From Pleomorphomonas diazotrophica (GTDB lineage: Bacteria > Pseudomonadota > Alphaproteobacteria > Rhizobiales > Pleomorphomonadaceae): DNA of 64,000 nt. The stretch spans positions 186,001 through 250,000 of the forward strand of contig NZ_PJNW01000009.1 of assembly GCF_002844595.1 (NCBI RefSeq). The letters are read 5' to 3'. Shown here one piece after another: positions 31,306 through 55,845 of the stretch. A program made the position numbers and the translations under genes. The notes beneath the pieces were generated by a model. It ran no database searches. It worked only from the letters and a program-made list of their open reading frames with translations, and was not told the DNA's origin. Position 1 is the stretch's first letter; every line of letters starts with the position of its first letter.

Positions 31306-32052
31306 CTAGGCCGACTTCCGGCGCGGCACCGGCACGGTATCCGCCGCATCGGCCACCTCTCTCCAGGCCGGCGCGGCGCCTTCGAGTTCCCGCCATTCCT
31401 TGAGGAGCACGCGCCGGCGACGCGGATAGCGGACGCCGAGATCGACGGCATCCGACATGCGGTCGACGCGGAAGTGGCGATAGTCGGCCCTGAGCTCGCA
31501 CCACGCGGTGAGGACGCGCACCCGCTCGAAGAAGGCGACGGCGATGGGCCAGACGACGCGACGCGAAGCGAGGCCCTTCTCATTGACATAGGAGAACTCG
31601 AGCCGGGTCTCGTTGCGGATGGCGGCACGCACCAGGGACAGGTCGACGCCGTCGCGGTTGGCGTTCCAGGCCGGCGCAACGATCAGGCCGGTGGCGTCCA
31701 TCCGGTCGGCGAGGTCGGGCGGCAGCACCGCGGCGATCTTGGCGAGCGCATTCTCGGCCGACGAGGCGAGCCGTTCGTCGGCCCGAGTCGCCGCCAGACG
31801 GGCACCGAACACCAGCGCCTCGATCTCGTCCTCGGTGAACATCAGGGGCGGCAGCATGAAGCCCGGCCGCAGCACATAGCCGACGCCGGCTTCGCCGTCG
31901 ATCGGGGCGCCCTGGCCGATCAGCGCCTGAATGTCGCGGTAGAGGGTGCGCAGCGACACGCCGAGCTCGGCAGCCAGCTCCGCCCCGGCGACGGGACGGC
32001 GACGGCGGCGCAAGGCCTGGACCAGGGTAAGGAGGCGCTCGGCGCGGGACAT
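31306..32052 (-). CDS. WYL-domain transcriptional regulator (YafY-type)
   Basis: This 248-residue regulator has an N-terminal helix-turn-helix (residues about 1-60, SRAERLLTLVQALRRRRRPV and LAAELGVSLRTLYRDI), a WCX-type segment, and a WYL domain (about 130-210, with EFSYVNEKGLASRRVVWPIAV and FERVRVLTAWCELRADYRHFRVDR). Such proteins sense nucleotides or nucleic acids and often control DNA repair or defence genes. The ATG at 32052 is chosen by homology. It is adjacent to the 2-kb stretch with no genes and the GANTC cluster. Confidence 0.87.
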   Translation of the reverse strand: MSRAERLLTLVQALRRRRRPVAGAELAAELGVSLRTLYRDIQALIGQGAPIDGEAGVGYVLRPGFMLPPLMFTEDEIEALVFGARLAATRADERLASSAENALAKIAAVLPPDLADRMDATGLIVAPAWNANRDGVDLSLVRAAIRNETRLEFSYVNEKGLASRRVVWPIAVAFFERVRVLTAWCELRADYRHFRVDRMSDAVDLGVRYPRRRRVLLKEWRELEGAAPAWREVADAADTVPVPRRKSA

Positions 32053-32232
32053 GGGACGACCCAGGAGTTTGGCAATGGATTCGGACAACAAATTCCGGCC
32101 GATCATGCCAGCAGCCACGGCCGACGTCCATAATAGTGATCTTGTTTTGTTCTGAAAAGGCCAATCTCAGACTTTTCCGAGCCGGCTTCGAGTGACGTCG
32201 CTTGCCGGCTCGTTTGGGGGGCATACGCCGAA

Positions 32233-32259: not shown

Positions 32260-33029
32260 CCCGCGCCGCTTCGATGATTACGGGAGCAGGCCGTCTCGCC
32301 GATCGTTTGGAATATTGATCGGTATCTCTCGAGCTCGTCGCAGTGGCAGCGCTGGGGCGTACGCTTGTCGAGGGGACTGAGGAGCCTGCCGCCGGTATGT
32401 CGCGCGACGCGGACTCGGCCGCCAACGGGCCACCACGCTTGGGCGGTTGCGTCAACCTTCGGCGCCTGAAGCTTACTTCATGTCTCGCGGACCGGCATGG
32501 TTGCCGCACCCGCGATCGCCGGATGACGACATACCCGGACATCGCCGTGCTGGGCATGGTCGGCAATCTCCATGGCCCGACCGAAGGACTGCATGACGCA
32601 AGTGCCTGGGCGGCGACGTTCCCGTCTGACCATATTGTTCTCTGCGGTGCATACAACCTATACGGAGTCTTCGTGACACGCCGAGATGACTCTTTGCCAG
32701 TGCCTCGGGGACAAGCGGCCGGCGCTCGTCTCGCCAGCAGATATTCGGCCGTCGACCGCCCACGCGGCGTTTCGGAACAGACCACGTGCCGACATCCAGA
32801 CGCCGAGGATGCAGTTCCAAGTCACCGACAAACGGCGGATCCGTCGGCTCGGGGGAGGCCGCGCAGCATGGTCTGCTCTTGGCTTGTCGGGGAGCAAGCC
32901 TCGTGCGGACGGCTCTGGCGAGCATCCTGCGCCGGTGATTCCGTCGGCCGGAATCCTGACGTACCGGCCTGCCAACTGCTGCGGGCCTGCCTGCGGTTCC
33001 AGCAGCATTGCAGGCGAAGTCGGCCATTT

Positions 33030-33425
33030 GAATCACTGCGCGAACCATCATGTGAATCACTGCGTGAGTAGCCTGTGAATCACTACATGAACCATCGTGA
33101 CGAAGCTTCAGCACTGTCTTCCAACCGATTCATATGACTCGCACATTCGCCTCAGGTTGAATCACCTCCTGAGGTCTGCTTTCCGGCTGGAAGCCCCCGT
33201 TTTTGAATCAGAACGTCAGCTATCGGAATCGGCCTGCGAGCGTCCTGAATCACTTCGTTAAGTCGCCGATATCGGCTTGTTACGCCTGAACATCTCGGCT
33301 TGAGCAGGCTGCGATCAATCGGCCGCCGGTTTGGTCTCTCGTGAGAGGCTGACTCCGAGCTGACACGAAGATAAGCAAATGCCCGTATCGACTCCTGTTT
33401 CGGCAAGCTTGAATCACTGCTTGAA
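33030..33425. repeat. Dispersed direct repeats of GAATCACT, inside a GANTC site cluster
   Basis: Copies at 33030, 33054, 33077, 33159, 33247 and 33411 share the consensus GAATCACTnCnTGA (one has GAATCACC), all in one orientation; the first three are spaced 24 and 23 bp. Other GANTC sites without the full unit lie at 32937, 32951, 33127, 33136, 33205, 33226, 33351 and 33390, giving 14 GANTC sites in 479 bp. The flanks hold only 3 sites in 818 bp on the left and 3 in about 690 bp on the right. Too irregular for a CRISPR or tandem satellite. Confidence 0.85.
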
Positions 33426-34104
33426 CTACGGTCACCGTCGAATGCCTCGCGGACCGGCATGTTGCATCGATCCGGCAAGGCAAGGGAAGAGACCAGCGAT
33501 GCATGCCCGGCTCTCCGACGATGGATGCCGCCGCAGTACCTCGCTGCCGGGCCGATCGATCCGAGGGGGACGCCACGACGATCCGGCGGAGACCCAACAG
33601 TCAATCACTCTTGCTTGCAGGCTGAAGTTGTGTTTGGCGGTTGCGTCTGGTCTTCACGCTGCGCCGCGGTGATCGGTCGCGGTGCCGGCCAGTGCAGTCT
33701 CTCGCGGCCTCGGCGCACCGGTCAAGACGCCTCCACAGGGCAGGCTCTGTCCAGCATGCCATAGGATGGCATCGGCTTCTCCGCCCCATGCCGCGTGGCG
33801 TTGTCGTCCGGGCGGACACGGCATCAAGGCTGATCCGGCTTGACGAGTCTCTTCGTGGCATACCGGCTCTCTCGATATGCGGACTGGCGGTCGTGCGACG
33901 AGAACCGGTGGGGCGCCATCGATGTCGGTAGGTGCTACCAACGCCCAATGTTCAGAAAAATGAACGGTTCATATCCAGCGCAGGAGGGAAGGCACGAGCC
34001 TGCCTCCGGAGTCTCCGGCCTCTTTGCCCGAAACAAATCGCGCCTTGTAGATCAGGGACGGACTCTGAAAGCCGAGGTGCTGCGAGCTATCAAGATGACA
34101 AAGC

Positions 34105-34139
34105 TAGCCCGCGCCGTCGGACGGGGACGGCGCGGGCTA
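34105..34139 (-). terminator. Hairpin terminator after the 83-residue gene
   Basis: TAGCCCGCGCCGTC (34105-34118) and its exact complement GACGGCGCGGGCTA (34126-34139) form a 14-bp stem with a 7-base loop. Read leftward it is followed by GCTTTGTC. It lies 28 bases past the stop of the leftward gene. Confidence 0.7.
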
Positions 34140-34167
34140 TAGCGCTGGGGCCCAACGAGGAGGGGTG

Positions 34168-34419
34168 TCAAGCCACGGCGCATCTGGTCGCGGCAATGGC
34201 GGCCGCGATTTCATTCTTGAGCTGAGACCGATGGCGCTTGAGATCGGCGAGGACGTCCGGCTCGGCCGGTTCCTCCAGCGTCTCGATGCGGAAAATGCGC
34301 CGGTTGATCTCCTGGTAGGCAGTCGCGAGGTCGCAGAAGACCGCATCGAACAGCATGAGCTGTTCAATGGCGCCCCAACTCTCAGGGAATTCCAAGGAAA
34401 GCTCGTGCGGGATGCTCAT
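34168..34419 (-). CDS. Small helical protein of unknown function
   Basis: The 83-residue product is acidic and mostly helical, with heptad-like Leu/Ile spacing in its second half (EINRRIFRIETLEEPAEPD and LADLKRHRSQLKNEI). A strong ribosome site (GAGGGGGAG) lies 4 to 12 bases before the ATG, and a good hairpin terminator follows, which together support a real gene. I recognise no family. It stands alone between the gene-poor stretch and the FeuN-like gene. Confidence 0.7.
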   Translation of the reverse strand: MSIPHELSLEFPESWGAIEQLMLFDAVFCDLATAYQEINRRIFRIETLEEPAEPDVLADLKRHRSQLKNEIAAAIAATRCAVA

Positions 34420-50484: not shown

Positions 50485-52926
50485 TTAGTGGACGGTTCTC
50501 CGCGGCTCGGTGAACACATCGGGCGCGGCAACGACGCGCGGATAGGCGACGGCCGAGCCGGCCTGCGAGGTCGCCACCGCGGCGGTGCCGTCGCTTGCCG
50601 TCGGCGCGGCGATGCGCGGCATCGAGATGGTGACCGTCGTTCCCGACCCTTCTACCGACTCGATCGTCATGCGGCCGCCGTGCAGCGCCACCAGCGACTG
50701 GGCGATGGCAAGCCCGAGCCCCGAGCCGGGGTGCTTGCGCGTCAGCTGGTTCTCCACCTGCACGAAGGGTTTGGCGATCTGATCGAGCGAGGCGGCGGGA
50801 ATGCCGATGCCGGTGTCGCTCACCGAGAACAGAACGTTGTCGCCCACCTGCCGCGTTCTGACCGTCACGGTGCCGGCGGCCGGCGTGAACTTCAGCGCGT
50901 TGGAGAGAAGGTTGAGCGCCACCTGTTTGACGGCGCGACGATCGGCCACCATCGGCTCGACCGCCTCGAAATCGGTGGCAAGGACGATCTGCCGCGTCTC
51001 GGCCTGCGACGACATGATGCGCACGCACTCGCCGAGTACCTCGTCGACCACCACGGACTCCAGCGTGAGGTTGACCCGGCCGGCTTCGATCTTCGACATG
51101 TCCAGAATGTCGGAAATGACGTTGAGCAGGTAGATGCCGCTGTCGTGGATGTCGCGGCAGTAATCGGTGTACTTCTCTGACCCGAGATCGCCGAACATGC
51201 CGGACATCATGATGTCGGAGAAGCCGATGATGGCGTTGAGCGGCGTCCGGAGCTCATGGCTCATCGAGGCAAGGAACTCGGACTTGGCCCGGTTGGCCGC
51301 CTCGGCGCGGGCCTTTTCCTCTGCGTATTTCTCGGCGAGTTCGACCAACTGGGTGGTCTGAAGCTGCATCTTGTGACGATGCTGGCGAAGGTCGGCGACG
51401 GTCGCCATAAGCTGCCGTTCGCTTTCGAGGAGGTTCTCCTCGTGGCGCTTCAGCTGGGTGATGTCGGTACCGACCGACACGAAGCCGCCGTCCTTGGTGC
51501 GGCGCTCGTTGATCTGCAGCCAGCGCCCGTCGTCGAGCCGCGCCTCGTAGGAGCGCTCGCCGCCGGACATTGAATAGCGCAAGCCCTCGCTCGACACCTT
51601 CGGCTGTCGGGCCGCCGCCATTACCTCGGCATAGGGCGTGCCCGGTCGGGCGACGCTGTCCGGCAACTGATGCAGGCTCTGGTATTTCGAGTTGCACATC
51701 ACCAGCCGGTTTTCCGAGTCCCAGATGACGAAGGCTTCGGAAATGGTGTCGATGCCGTCACGCAGGCGGATGGCCGCCGTGGCGTTCTCCTGGGCAAGGG
51801 TCTTCTGCTCGGTGACGTCGACGGTGATGCCGATGAGGTGCGGCGAGCCGTCCCGATCGCGAACCACCTCGGCGCGCATCCGGAGCCACACCCATTCGCC
51901 GCCGGCGTGGCGAATGCGGAACTCCAGGTCGACGGACGGCTGGCCGGTTTCAAGGACTTCCTTGGCCAGTTCGTAGAGGTCGACATCGTCGGGGTGGATC
52001 AGCGCCTGCAGGTCGTTGAAGCCCATCAGGTCGGAGTTGGGTTCCATGCCCAGGATCACATACATCGACGGCGACCAGAACAGCCGGCCGCGGGCGAGGT
52101 CCCAGTCCCAGAGGCCGCATCGGCCGCGCCGGAGCGCCGTGTCGACGCGGGCCTGGGTGGCGTTGTAGATGCGGTCGGCTTCGCGCGCCCGGCTCATCTG
52201 GGCGAAGAAGGCGTAGACCACGGCGATCAGGATCAGCGACGTACCGACGAACAGCACCGCCGTCATGGTCACATCATGCCGCCAGCCGACATAGACCTGG
52301 GCGAGCGGCTGGTAGACGGCGACAGTGCCGCGCTCGCCGGCAAGGTTGCGCACCGTGGCGAGCGCTTCGGTGCCGTTGGAAAGCGTGACATCCAGAACGC
52401 CCGCCCGCTTGCCGAACACCAGCATCGGCTGGTCGGCGCCGAACAGGTCGGCCACGGAGCCGCCGCCGATAAACGCCCCTTCCGGCGCCGTTGCCCGGAT
52501 GGTTCCGCTCGCATCGGCGAACAGGATGACGCGGCCGTCGCTGGTCGCCGAAGGGGGCAGGCTGTCGCGCAATGCGGCCCGCATGATGCCGGAGAAGCCG
52601 CCGTCGGTCTTCTCAAGCGACGGATGGGCTGAAAGGTCGGCGTCAAGCGCCTCGGCCAGGAGCGCCACCATGTCGGAGGCGGCGCGATAGGTGTCGGTTC
52701 GCTGCTGGAGAAGGTTGGAGACGTGGAAGATGCCGCCGACCAACAGGAAGGCCGAAATCAGAACGGGGATCGAACGACGGAACAGCGGTTCGGCCTGGAG
52801 GAGACGGAGATAGGAGGGGCGGACCAGCAGGCCGGCGTGCCCCTTCAGGATGCTTTCCGTTTCGGCGTCGCCAAAAAAGCGCGCTCTCCACGTTCCCGAC
52901 CCTCGACTGAGGTCGTTGCCCGCCAT
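50485..52926 (-). CDS. pleC: Cell-cycle sensor histidine kinase/phosphatase, PleC-like
   Basis: This about 813-residue membrane kinase has two membrane helices (about residues 60-80 and 217-237) around a periplasmic sensor, a chain of PAS-type domains (about 260-520) and HisKA-HATPase with the His in FLASMSHELRTPLNAIIGFS, then NLLSNALKFTP, DTGIGIP and GSGLGLAIAQSL. In alphaproteobacteria the related PleC acts on DivK and controls asymmetric division. The genomic position next to glnE and pepN is that of rhizobial pleC. The start is 52926 (weak GGGGC site) or 52947. A GANTC-rich segment lies just upstream. Confidence 0.77.
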   Translation of the reverse strand: MAGNDLSRGSGTWRARFFGDAETESILKGHAGLLVRPSYLRLLQAEPLFRRSIPVLISAFLLVGGIFHVSNLLQQRTDTYRAASDMVALLAEALDADLSAHPSLEKTDGGFSGIMRAALRDSLPPSATSDGRVILFADASGTIRATAPEGAFIGGGSVADLFGADQPMLVFGKRAGVLDVTLSNGTEALATVRNLAGERGTVAVYQPLAQVYVGWRHDVTMTAVLFVGTSLILIAVVYAFFAQMSRAREADRIYNATQARVDTALRRGRCGLWDWDLARGRLFWSPSMYVILGMEPNSDLMGFNDLQALIHPDDVDLYELAKEVLETGQPSVDLEFRIRHAGGEWVWLRMRAEVVRDRDGSPHLIGITVDVTEQKTLAQENATAAIRLRDGIDTISEAFVIWDSENRLVMCNSKYQSLHQLPDSVARPGTPYAEVMAAARQPKVSSEGLRYSMSGGERSYEARLDDGRWLQINERRTKDGGFVSVGTDITQLKRHEENLLESERQLMATVADLRQHRHKMQLQTTQLVELAEKYAEEKARAEAANRAKSEFLASMSHELRTPLNAIIGFSDIMMSGMFGDLGSEKYTDYCRDIHDSGIYLLNVISDILDMSKIEAGRVNLTLESVVVDEVLGECVRIMSSQAETRQIVLATDFEAVEPMVADRRAVKQVALNLLSNALKFTPAAGTVTVRTRQVGDNVLFSVSDTGIGIPAASLDQIAKPFVQVENQLTRKHPGSGLGLAIAQSLVALHGGRMTIESVEGSGTTVTISMPRIAAPTASDGTAAVATSQAGSAVAYPRVVAAPDVFTEPRRTVH

Positions 52927-52973
52927 GTCGTTGCCCCGCCGCCGCATGTTGTTGGGGAACGCGAAACACCCCC

Positions 52974-53105
52974 GAATCAGGGCCAGTTTGAATCATCGGG
53001 AATCGCTCTGTCCATAGGTTAAAGAGCGTTGAATCTTCTTTTTGAATCGCCGCCGGCGAATGGCGGAATCTGTGACATTCCTGCCGATTCCGACGGACGG
53101 GATTC
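52974..53105. promoter_or_regulatory. Cluster of eight GANTC sites upstream of pleC
   Basis: GAATC or GATTC occurs at 52974, 52990, 53000, 53031, 53044, 53066, 53086 and 53101. GANTC is the target of the CcrM adenine methyltransferase. The segment covers the presumed promoter of the leftward pleC gene. A TTAACC sequence, like a CtrA half-site, is read on the minus strand at 53018-53023. Confidence 0.75.
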
Positions 53106-53199: not shown

Positions 53200-55845
53200 T
53201 CAGGCCAGCGTCCGCTCCAGGATGTCGGCGACGTCGCGCGACAGCTGCGGCTTGCCCTGGATCGATCGCAGCGCCGTCTCCGCCTGGGCCCGCCGCTTCG
53301 GTTCGTAGGACCGCCATGAGCGGAAGGTAACGAGCAGCCGGGCCGCCAGTTGCGGGTTGGCCGCATCGAGCCGAGAGATGATGTCGGCCACGAAGCCGAA
53401 GCCCTTGCCGTCGGCCCGACCGAACTGGGTGGGGTTCGATGTGGCGAAGGCACCGACCAGCGCCCTGACGCGGTTCGGGTTACCGAAGGAGAAAGCGGGA
53501 TGCTGCGTCAGCGTCATGACCTTGTCGAGCGTGCCGGGAAGCGGTGCCGACGCCTGTGCCGACAGCCACTTGTCGACCACCAGCGGCACGTTGCCGAAGC
53601 GCTCGAAGAAGGCGGCCAGCGCAGCCTCGGCGCCCGCATCGCCGCGATGGACCAGGATGGTCAGCGCGGCCATGCGGTCGGTCATGTTGATGGCCGTCTC
53701 GAAGCGGCGACGCACCAGCGCCATTGCCTCGGCCGAACCGGTGATCGACAGGAGATCGAGGGCGGTGTTGGCAAGCGATCGCCTGCCGGAGCCAGCAGCA
53801 TCCGGCACGTAGGGTTGGTCAGCGGCGGCATTGTCGGCCTCGACGATGGCCCGGAGCCGCGCCTCCAGCCGGCCGGCGATGGTGCGCCGATAGGCCAGGT
53901 GGGCGGTGGCCACCGCGTCGGGATCGACATTTTCGGCCACTTCGCGGGCGACGTCGTTCTCGCTGGGCACGGCAATGAGCAGCGCCTTGAAGGCAGCGTC
54001 GAGGGCAGGATCGTCTAGCAGCTTGCCGAGCGCATCGATCGGCGCCGTCTCGAAGCTGGGCGCCTGACCGGCCCGCACCTGCTGCGTCGCCTTGACCAGT
54101 GCGGTCATCGCCAGCGTCGTTCCGGCCTGCCAGCGGTTGAAGCTGTCGGCGTCGTTGGCGAGCAGGAAGATGAGATCGGCCGACGACAGCGACTGCCGCA
54201 CCTTCACCGGCGCCGAGAAGCGACGGAACAGCGAGGGGACCGGCCGCGAGGGCAGGCCCTCGAAGGTGACGGTGTGCGATGGCGCGGTCAGGATCAGCGT
54301 GTCGCCATTCACCTCGGCGCCGGCGATGCCGGACGGCCGCATGTCCTTGCCATCCGGGCCGACGAGGCCGAAGCGCACGGGGATGACGCGCGGCTTCTTG
54401 GTCTGCTGGCCGGGCGTTGCCGGGGTTTCCTGCGTGAGCGTCAATGTGTAGCGCCGCGCCGCCTCGTCCCAGCTTTCGTCGATGGTGACGGTGGGCGTGC
54501 CGGCTTCGCGGTACCAGACCATGAAGGGTTCAAGGTCGCGGCCGGAGGCTTCGGCAAAGCAGGCGATGAACTGCTCGATGGTGGCGGCCTCGCCGTCATG
54601 GCGGGTGAAATAGAGGTCCATGCCGCGCGCAAACGCATCGTCGCCGATCAGCGTCTTCAGCATGCGGATCACCTCGGCGCCCTTCTCGTAAACGGTCGCC
54701 GTGTAGAAGTTATTGATTTCCTTGTACTGTTCCGGCCGTACAGGATGGGCGAGCGGGCCGCCGTCCTCGGGGAACTGCTGGCTCCTCAGGAGGCGCGCGT
54801 CGGAAATGCGCTTCACCGCCCGCGAGCGCATGTCGGAGGAGAACTCCTGATCGCGGAAGACGGTGAGACCTTCCTTGAGGCAAAGCTGGAACCAGTCGCG
54901 GCAGGTGATGCGGTCGCCGGTCCAGTTGTGGAAATACTCGTGGGCGATCACCGCCTCGATGCCGGCATAGTCGGCATCGGTGGCGATCTCCGGATCGGCC
55001 AGCACGTACTTGTCGTTGAAGACGTTGAGGCCCTTGTTCTCCATGGCCCCCATGTTGAAGTCGGAGACGGCCACCACGTTGAACACGTCGAGGTCATACT
55101 CGCGGCCGAACACCTCTTCGTCCCACTTCATCGACCGCTTGAGCGAGTCCATGGCATAGACGGCCTTCGGCGCGTTGCCCTTTTCGACGTAGATGGCGAG
55201 CTTCACCTTGCGGCCGCCCATCGTCGTGAACTCGTCTTCGAGGGCGTCGAGGTCGCCGGCCACCAGCGCGAAGAGATAGCTCGGCTTCGGCCAGGGATCG
55301 TGCCAGACGGCGAAATGGCGGCCGTCGCCGAGGTCGCCCGACGACACGGGATTGCCGTTGGACAGAAGGATCGGCGCCTCGATCTTCGGCGCGACGATCT
55401 TCACGGTGAACACCGAGAGCACGTCCGGCCGGTCATAATAATAGGTGATGCGGCGGAAGCCCTCCGCCTCGCACTGGGTGCACCACGTGCCGGACGAGCG
55501 ATAGAGGCCCATCAGCTTGGTGTTGGCCGCCGGATCGAGGCGGGTGGTCATTTCTAGGCGGAAGCTGCCGGCGGGCGGCGCCTTGACGGTCAGCCGGTCG
55601 GCGCTCGCCTCATACTCGTCTTCGCGCAGCTCGCGACCGTCGACCGCGATGCGGACGAGCGTCAACTCGTCGCCGTTGAGAACGAGAGGTTCCCCGGCGG
55701 TGCCAGCGCGCGGCGAAAGGACAAGCGTTGCCGCGACCAGCGTCCTCTCCGGCGTCAGATCGAACTCGAGGTCGACCTTGTCGATGGCATAGGGTGTGGG
55801 CCGGTAGTCGGCGAGACGGATGACGGGGGCGGAATCCTGGGACAC
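53200..55845 (-). CDS. pepN: Aminopeptidase N (M1 family)
   Basis: This 881-residue zinc aminopeptidase removes N-terminal residues from peptides in the cytoplasm. The exopeptidase motif GAMEN is present (NMGAMENKGLNVFNDKY), and the zinc motif is HEYFHNWTGDRITC with the distal Glu in LKEGLTVFRDQEF. The family length is about 870 residues, so it is complete. It is leftward, ends 90 bases before a hairpin and 95 bases after the GANTC cluster. Confidence 0.95.
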   Translation of the reverse strand: MSQDSAPVIRLADYRPTPYAIDKVDLEFDLTPERTLVAATLVLSPRAGTAGEPLVLNGDELTLVRIAVDGRELREDEYEASADRLTVKAPPAGSFRLEMTTRLDPAANTKLMGLYRSSGTWCTQCEAEGFRRITYYYDRPDVLSVFTVKIVAPKIEAPILLSNGNPVSSGDLGDGRHFAVWHDPWPKPSYLFALVAGDLDALEDEFTTMGGRKVKLAIYVEKGNAPKAVYAMDSLKRSMKWDEEVFGREYDLDVFNVVAVSDFNMGAMENKGLNVFNDKYVLADPEIATDADYAGIEAVIAHEYFHNWTGDRITCRDWFQLCLKEGLTVFRDQEFSSDMRSRAVKRISDARLLRSQQFPEDGGPLAHPVRPEQYKEINNFYTATVYEKGAEVIRMLKTLIGDDAFARGMDLYFTRHDGEAATIEQFIACFAEASGRDLEPFMVWYREAGTPTVTIDESWDEAARRYTLTLTQETPATPGQQTKKPRVIPVRFGLVGPDGKDMRPSGIAGAEVNGDTLILTAPSHTVTFEGLPSRPVPSLFRRFSAPVKVRQSLSSADLIFLLANDADSFNRWQAGTTLAMTALVKATQQVRAGQAPSFETAPIDALGKLLDDPALDAAFKALLIAVPSENDVAREVAENVDPDAVATAHLAYRRTIAGRLEARLRAIVEADNAAADQPYVPDAAGSGRRSLANTALDLLSITGSAEAMALVRRRFETAINMTDRMAALTILVHRGDAGAEAALAAFFERFGNVPLVVDKWLSAQASAPLPGTLDKVMTLTQHPAFSFGNPNRVRALVGAFATSNPTQFGRADGKGFGFVADIISRLDAANPQLAARLLVTFRSWRSYEPKRRAQAETALRSIQGKPQLSRDVADILERTLA

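Follow-up and report, generated by a model that had tools for sequence, protein, structure and literature searches.

What are fourteen CcrM methylation sites doing within 479 bp of non-coding DNA, in a region where such sites are otherwise scarce? The window, the whole 64-kb stretch of DNA that was analysed, carries this island in an intergenic region of about 2 kb between genes for an HTH/WYL regulator and a DUF465 protein, both on the minus strand (Table 1). From its sequence features, the island is most likely a putative CcrM-methylatable docking array, orphaned here. We give a probability of about one in two to the fuller reading, a methylation-gated, directional array of CcrM sites that would be a cis-regulatory element of a gene-transfer-agent (GTA) cluster and would have been kept after GTA loss for a host function.

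Density and anatomy of the island

The sequence-only reading placed fourteen GANTC sites between 32937 and 33415, and all fourteen positions are correct, as are the three sites in each flank (left 818 bp, right 752 bp). The 222 bp in which it counted ten sites, 33030-33251, have nine. It was right to see an excess over the roughly two sites it expected by chance, but underestimated the size of that excess, because the whole window is depleted in GANTC. The window has 114 sites where 100 shuffles average 339, so GANTC is avoided in it, and avoidance was reported for Alphaproteobacteria by Gonzalez et al. in the available text of their paper (PMC3973325). Dinucleotide shuffles of the 479 bp gave a mean of 3.1 sites and a maximum of 10 (n = 2000), never reaching the observed 14. 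A sliding 500-bp count over 443.6 kb of the same genome (550 GANTC, mean 0.62 per 500 bp) found the island densest, with 14 sites, and a runner-up with 8. This sample, all of contig C40, whose positions 186001-250000 are the window, and five 20-kb stretches, covers about a tenth of the genome and is not random, because four of the five stretches were chosen for motif hits.

The runner-up cluster packs its eight GANTC into 132 bp (52974-53105), with spacing unlike that of the island, and lies between pepN (53200-55845, minus strand) and a gene for an 820-aa PAS histidine kinase (50485-52947, minus strand). In family f6 the head motif described below is likewise found between pepN and a histidine kinase.

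Table 1. Coordinates of the island, its parts and the neighbouring genes in the window
Feature	Position	Strand	Description
GANTC array (island)	32937..33425	+	14 CcrM sites and T-S-A half-sites, non-coding
Core array	33069..33270	+	seven GANTC, aligned over 12 genomes
Head	33122..33141	+	CAACC-GATTC-N4-GACTC, two GANTC 9 bp apart (GATTC 33127, GACTC 33136)
Three TGAATCACTnCnTGA-like units	33029..33091 (starts 33029, 33053, 33076)	+	23-24 bp apart
Unit TGAATCACCTCCTGAG	33158..33173	+	its GANTC 32 bp past first head GANTC
Three units at 21-bp spacing	33204..33261	+	GANTC 33205, 33226, 33247
Trailing sites	33351..33425	+	GANTC 33351, 33390, 33411
HTH/WYL regulator gene	31306..32118	-	kept in GTA-less genomes; in P. 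koreensis (G003) just before GTA portal
DUF465 gene	34168..34419	-	kept in GTA-less genomes

The repeated unit already noticed by eye, GAATCACTnCnTGA, is real and has six copies. We describe the island as a putative directional array of CcrM methylation sites, composed of a head and units. The head grammar would be CAAG-n-GATTC-N4-GAYTC, with its two sites 9 bp apart, and the unit grammar GANTC-R-n-T-n-T-n-Y-S-A-R, with steps of 21 bp (two helical turns) and 30 bp. The array in the window is irregular: it has 21-bp steps, yet also steps of 50, 32, 46 and 23-24 bp, and its seven core sites lie at offsets 0, 50, 59, 82, 128, 149 and 170, which over the 12 aligned genomes become about 0, 50, 59, 82, 127, 148 and 169. 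Its head has CAACC, not AAG, ahead of the doublet, and the strict head pattern has no match in this genome (G000); AAC also precedes the doublet in some GTA heads among the 67 usable loci of the best 80 of 592 from IMG/VR. Sites comparable to the trailing ones stand, in the GTA-bearing genomes G003 and G006, at the start of a small open reading frame before the protease gene (reading frames assigned by eye). A CcrM gene is present in the genome (its product matches the CcrM structure 6pbd at 2e-162), and GcrA is encoded in 14/14 genomes of the genus, this one included.

Three side features share the intergenic region. Beside the end of the DUF465 gene, a stretch of about 75 bp (34092-34170) contains a perfect 14-bp hairpin (34105-34118 / 34126-34139), is 95-100% identical in 11 aligned sisters and is detectable in other families; it has no Rfam match at gathering score. 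A 20-bp direct repeat (95%) flanks the island at 32480-32499 and 33442-33461, 962 bp apart, and a further 15-bp repeat pair lies at 32439 and 33633.

Conservation and the gene-transfer-agent neighbourhood

The seven core GANTC are kept in all 12 aligned genomes of the Pleomorphomonas group, with spacing nearly fixed; one of them, G010, has lost 9 bp between core sites four and five. Of the 13 other genomes of the genus, 11 have the unit motif at the matching place in this intergenic region, pointing the same way. Comparing the intergenic region with that of the sisters by blastn gave three shared blocks, namely the first 40 bp or so before the WYL gene, the island and the stretch of about 75 bp by DUF465. 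Conservation and the density count thus bear on both of the outcomes that the sequence-only reading said would count against it, and within what was searched neither equal density elsewhere nor a lack of conservation appeared.

The pattern of conservation is finer than this. Across the 11 genomes whose locus lacks GTA genes, every GA-TC column is invariant (28/28); among the other island columns 24/168 are, and among the fourfold columns of two neighbouring genes 32/219 (18/97 and 14/122). The central base of GANTC varies at four of the seven core sites over the 12 genomes, the last site showing all four bases, and never varies at the other three. Comparative sequence evidence of this kind supports selection acting on GANTC itself, and on the same evidence the array is still under purifying selection in the GTA-less genomes. 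The suggestion that the island could be a methylation-sensitive timing, silencing or binding element holds up in its binding part, which is a fair reading because GA-TC is invariant around a variable centre and CcrM and GcrA are both encoded.

The relatives supply the genomic context. The gene order in P. koreensis (G003) is a terminase-like reading frame, the WYL gene, portal, island, protease, capsid, further genes, DUF465 and an Rcc01695-family tail gene (DUF2460), so that DUF465 stands among GTA genes, ahead of the tail gene. Its portal, protease and capsid reach NCBIfam cut-offs; the terminase-like frame before WYL has no NCBIfam match. A GANTC cluster precedes the protease gene in G003, G006 (Oryzibacter oryziterrae), G007, G015, G016 and G017; the identity of portal, protease or capsid was checked for five of these (G003, G006, G007, G015 and G017), and G016 has a head and units ahead of its protease. 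G014, G018, G019 and G059 have protease and capsid genes and no GANTC cluster. The 9-bp doublet precedes the protease in only five of 50 such loci in genomes of the order (G003, G006, G016, G030 and G062), so GTA clusters of the order do not carry the array as a rule.

The window has no credible match to the portal, protease or capsid of G003; the best match near the island, to the capsid, has E 0.58 and lies on the wrong strand (32725-32988). The link of this array to GTAs rests on synteny with G003. At this locus the structural GTA genes are missing from the window's genome and ten sisters, while WYL, array and DUF465 remain, the WYL regulators of the GTA-less sisters being 91-96% identical to that of the window. 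The WYL regulator is a candidate GTA-linked regulator. DUF2460 has no match anywhere in 10 of the 11 GTA-less genomes, and G010 has a sub-threshold match with a stop. A protease search in five of the 11 found no match in G000, G005 and G012, and matches in G009 (P. oryzae) and G013 at E 4e-15 and 7e-27. Given these protease and DUF2460 matches, GTA loss is established at the locus and may not extend to every gene in every genome.

The ladder in other GTA loci and the head motif elsewhere

We looked for the array in IMG/VR by two routes. A scan with the head pattern gave 48 stretches; in all nine that had units in step and were read, the array lies between portal-like and protease-like genes. 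A second scan, by protease alignment, was blind to GANTC. Its best 80 of 592 loci were kept, of which 67 were usable, the other 13 having less than 1250 bp upstream. Every count from here to the end of the next paragraph refers to these best 80 of 592 loci. GANTC density in the 67 is 3.31 per kb in the 1.1 kb before the protease, 0.60 downstream and 0.36 on the portal side. The 9-bp doublet is present in 40/67 and absent from 27/67. Sites lie exactly 30 bp upstream of the doublet in 32/40 loci, 51 bp upstream in 16/40, 72 bp in 13/40 and 93 bp in 1/40.

Distances between GANTC pairs in 56 non-redundant intervals of the 67 peak at 30 (36 pairs), 9 (34), 39 (30), 21 (21) and 51 (17). Nine control motifs gave no such ladder in the same intervals: seven composition-matched 5-mers reached at most nine pairs at any distance, and in two GC-only motifs distance 3 dominates. 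Even in 22 loci without the doublet, the commonest GANTC distances are 30 and 21. Letters at -30 to -26, which were not selected for, read G30 A29 n T28 C31 over 32 non-redundant doublets. The logo of the GTA doublets was made from 32/40 heads and 48/62 units, with the GA-TC letters of the units there by construction.

The head motif also occurs away from GTA genes. Its pattern has 71 matches in 63 of 397 genomes of the order, against one for the reversed control, and matches in 8 of 385 genomes of a class sample, where the control gave one; the head logo is drawn from 46 of 54 heads, its AAG and GATTC/GACTC letters being largely by construction. Heads adjoin ctrA in two families (L259, L238; NF045991 above cut-off), and in another family (L248) a head lies between pepN and a histidine kinase whose matches to DivJ/PdhS models stay under the cut-offs. 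Several heads (L351, L376, L342, L243, L245) have, about 20-35 bp further on, a palindrome like CACTTTTAAAGTG that may be a promoter or second operator, and one stretch of G304 (L234) has four GATTC-N4-GACTC doublets about 100 bp apart.

A sequence model built from 12 islands, with six candidates scored per genome and 21-bp spacing favoured by construction, found nearly full-length relatives of the array in another family (G113, G077) and shorter ones elsewhere. The IMG/VR protease-locus test is independent and does not favour 21-bp spacing. The G113 and G077 arrays are on contigs other than those with their GTA protease. Each is a full array between dioxygenase-like and NAD-synthase-like genes (L211, L212; names assigned by eye); that of G113 has no blastn match in plasmids or phages, and the GTA protease locus of G077 has no GANTC in the 900 bp upstream.

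The arrays are rare loci. The further GANTC clusters seen in samples of G310 and G012 lack the unit grammar, as judged by eye, and 21-bp phasing of GANTC is absent from the G310 sample. The G012 and G000 samples have 5 and 6 pairs at 21 bp; the genome-wide phasing test gives no support, since these samples include the island and several control 5-mers are also raised at 21.

Mechanism, competing explanations and meaning

A protein array dependent on the CcrM site best explains the fixed helical spacing, the direction, the variable centre and the full conservation of GA-TC. We infer that a protein able to tell fully, hemi- or unmethylated GANTC apart would bind cooperatively to the units along a single helical face. 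The array would be a cis-regulatory part of RcGTA-type clusters in Pleomorphomonadaceae and in many IMG/VR loci (among the best 80 of 592), between portal and prohead-protease genes, and binding would gate transcription of the capsid block with replication-fork passage and CcrM activity. The reader is probably a host protein, because the same head lies beside host cell-cycle genes in other families; the heads beside ctrA and a histidine kinase suggest, on their sequence context, that the host supplies the reader and that the cell cycle gates the GTA capsid block. Where the GTA genes are gone from the locus the array should serve a host function, because purifying selection persists. The orphan array probably has, or has gained, such a role, and no conserved target gene is evident at the orphan locus.

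A bolder version, which we consider rather improbable, has a SeqA-like host protein polymerising on phased hemimethylated GANTC. The array would then be a sensor of replication passage that gates both the GTA capsid block and host cell-cycle genes and is kept after GTA loss. Gammaproteobacteria have comparable systems, in which SeqA with GATC clusters, and methylated RctB iterons, present phased Dam-type sites to a dedicated protein. The array differs from these in its methyltransferase and in not being at an origin.

The strongest competitor to a methylation-read array is an operator array of an ordinary dimeric or oligomeric factor, or of a silencer such as a MucR/Ros-type protein, in which GANTC would be incidental to TGA-N-TCA half-sites or methylation would be blocked by the protein. 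We think it unlikely overall, although MucR-type occlusion deserves to be taken seriously as an alternative. Three of the seven sites (1, 4 and 5) have A as their central base in every one of the 12 genomes, which is how an ordinary sequence-specific site would look; several units also keep the T at +11 and the A at +13, and a variable central base could equally come from a palindromic site whose protein leaves the centre free. Against an ordinary operator, site 7 has all four central bases with GA-TC kept, the GA-TC columns of the 11 GTA-less genomes far outlast the other island columns (28/28 against 24/168), and head, units and trailing sites differ in their flanks and share GANTC. In the available text of PMC5172544, MucR is described as shielding GANTC from CcrM in both Caulobacter and S. 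meliloti. Those hypomethylated loci resemble the array in having several GANTC each and possible shielding by a protein; they differ in that the example loci there have one to four GANTC, and that text describes no spacing grammar.

An improbable reading, in our judgement, is a GcrA/sigma70-dependent promoter cluster of known kind. GcrA and CcrM are encoded and heads lie beside ctrA and the pepN-linked histidine kinase. The array shares with the CcrM/GcrA promoters of Caulobacter (ctrA P1, ftsZ) its intergenic GANTC, the presence of both proteins and, in two families, a head next to ctrA. Its seven to fourteen sites, fixed helical spacing and direction set it apart from them, as does its place in relatives, inside the GTA cluster and not at a host promoter. 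The array also avoids the published GcrA flank motif, YGAKTCK/YGAKTCG in the available text of PMC7987155. GcrA, suggested as a binder by the sequence-only reading, does not fit, since YGAKTCK is found in 0/14 island sites; it is in 2/48 non-redundant GTA units (from the best 80 of 592 loci), against a background of 112/436. GcrA specificity could differ here, because that of B. subvibrioides has little flank preference, also in the available text of PMC7987155. A promoter role is unlikely for three of 15 array loci elsewhere, because they lie between convergent genes (by a reading-frame heuristic).

A replication or chromosome-organisation element, iteron-like or SeqA-target-like and sensing fork passage, seems distinctly improbable. 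It would suit the phased direct repeats with a methylation site in each, the three arrays between convergent genes and retention without GTA. No replication initiator was recognised adjoining the island, however, and in G012, a single contig of 5.48 Mb, the island is at 4.27 Mb, dnaA at 0.53 and hemE, a marker of the expected origin, at 0.61. An origin or terminus was rejected, as the island there is mid-replichore, neither beside the expected origin nor opposite it.

Least credible is a small repetitive coding sequence for short GTA proteins. In its favour, the main spacings of the ladder (9, 21, 30, 51) all divide by three, and site 1 of G003 and G006 falls in the end of a small reading frame after the portal and the heads of G030 and G062 at the start of one (all by eye). 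Against it, only 18/40 GTA arrays (best 80 of 592 loci) have the natural frame open, with variable ends, and the Pleomorphomonas spacings of 50, 23 and 44 break the frame. Over 12 genomes the T that would be the wobble base of the ANT codon never changes at 7/7 sites while the second codon position varies at four, the reverse of coding constraint.

Other candidates were rejected outright. For a structured RNA, the window gave no Rfam match at gathering score, the RNAalifold covariation term was -0.17 and two-sided change occurred in 3/25 pairs. The search for tRNA found none, and for a mobile-record origin blastn of the island against plasmids gave no match. The unit partly resembles the IHF consensus used for comparison, and IHF was dropped as the reader because the second T of that consensus is missing.

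The proposed methylation-gated array has a parallel in known GTA biology. The internal IHF elements of the Caulobacter GTA are, in the available text of PMC11150451, protein-binding non-coding DNA inside the GTA structural cluster, as the array would be if its putative binding holds. They lie between terminase and portal and bind IHF, whereas the array consists of GANTC and stands after the portal and before the protease. GafY, GafZ and IHF control that GTA, and by word search the main text of the same paper names neither CcrM nor methylation. A 2022 comparative study (PMC9836097) states, in its available text, that to its authors' knowledge no one had investigated whether CtrA, CcrM methylation and the GTA cluster are connected. 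On a scale of 1/100 of a chromosome it finds that GANTC dips slightly at the capsid gene of Caulobacterales and Sphingomonadales, with the lowest values in Rhodobacterales; because GANTC was binned at that scale, a 100-bp ladder would be missed. The main text of the Agrobacterium CcrM paper (PMC11514494) lacks the words phage, capsid, portal and GTA, and no description of GANTC arrays in GTA clusters was found in the literature searched by title and abstract start.

In GTA DNA that is otherwise poor in GANTC, CcrM sites form a ladder with sharp spacing at a single, exact position, the interval from portal to protease. If methylation matters there, GTA production would be tied to the cell cycle, which is directly testable. 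The survival of the array past the loss of the GTA points to host use of a regulatory element from a domesticated phage.
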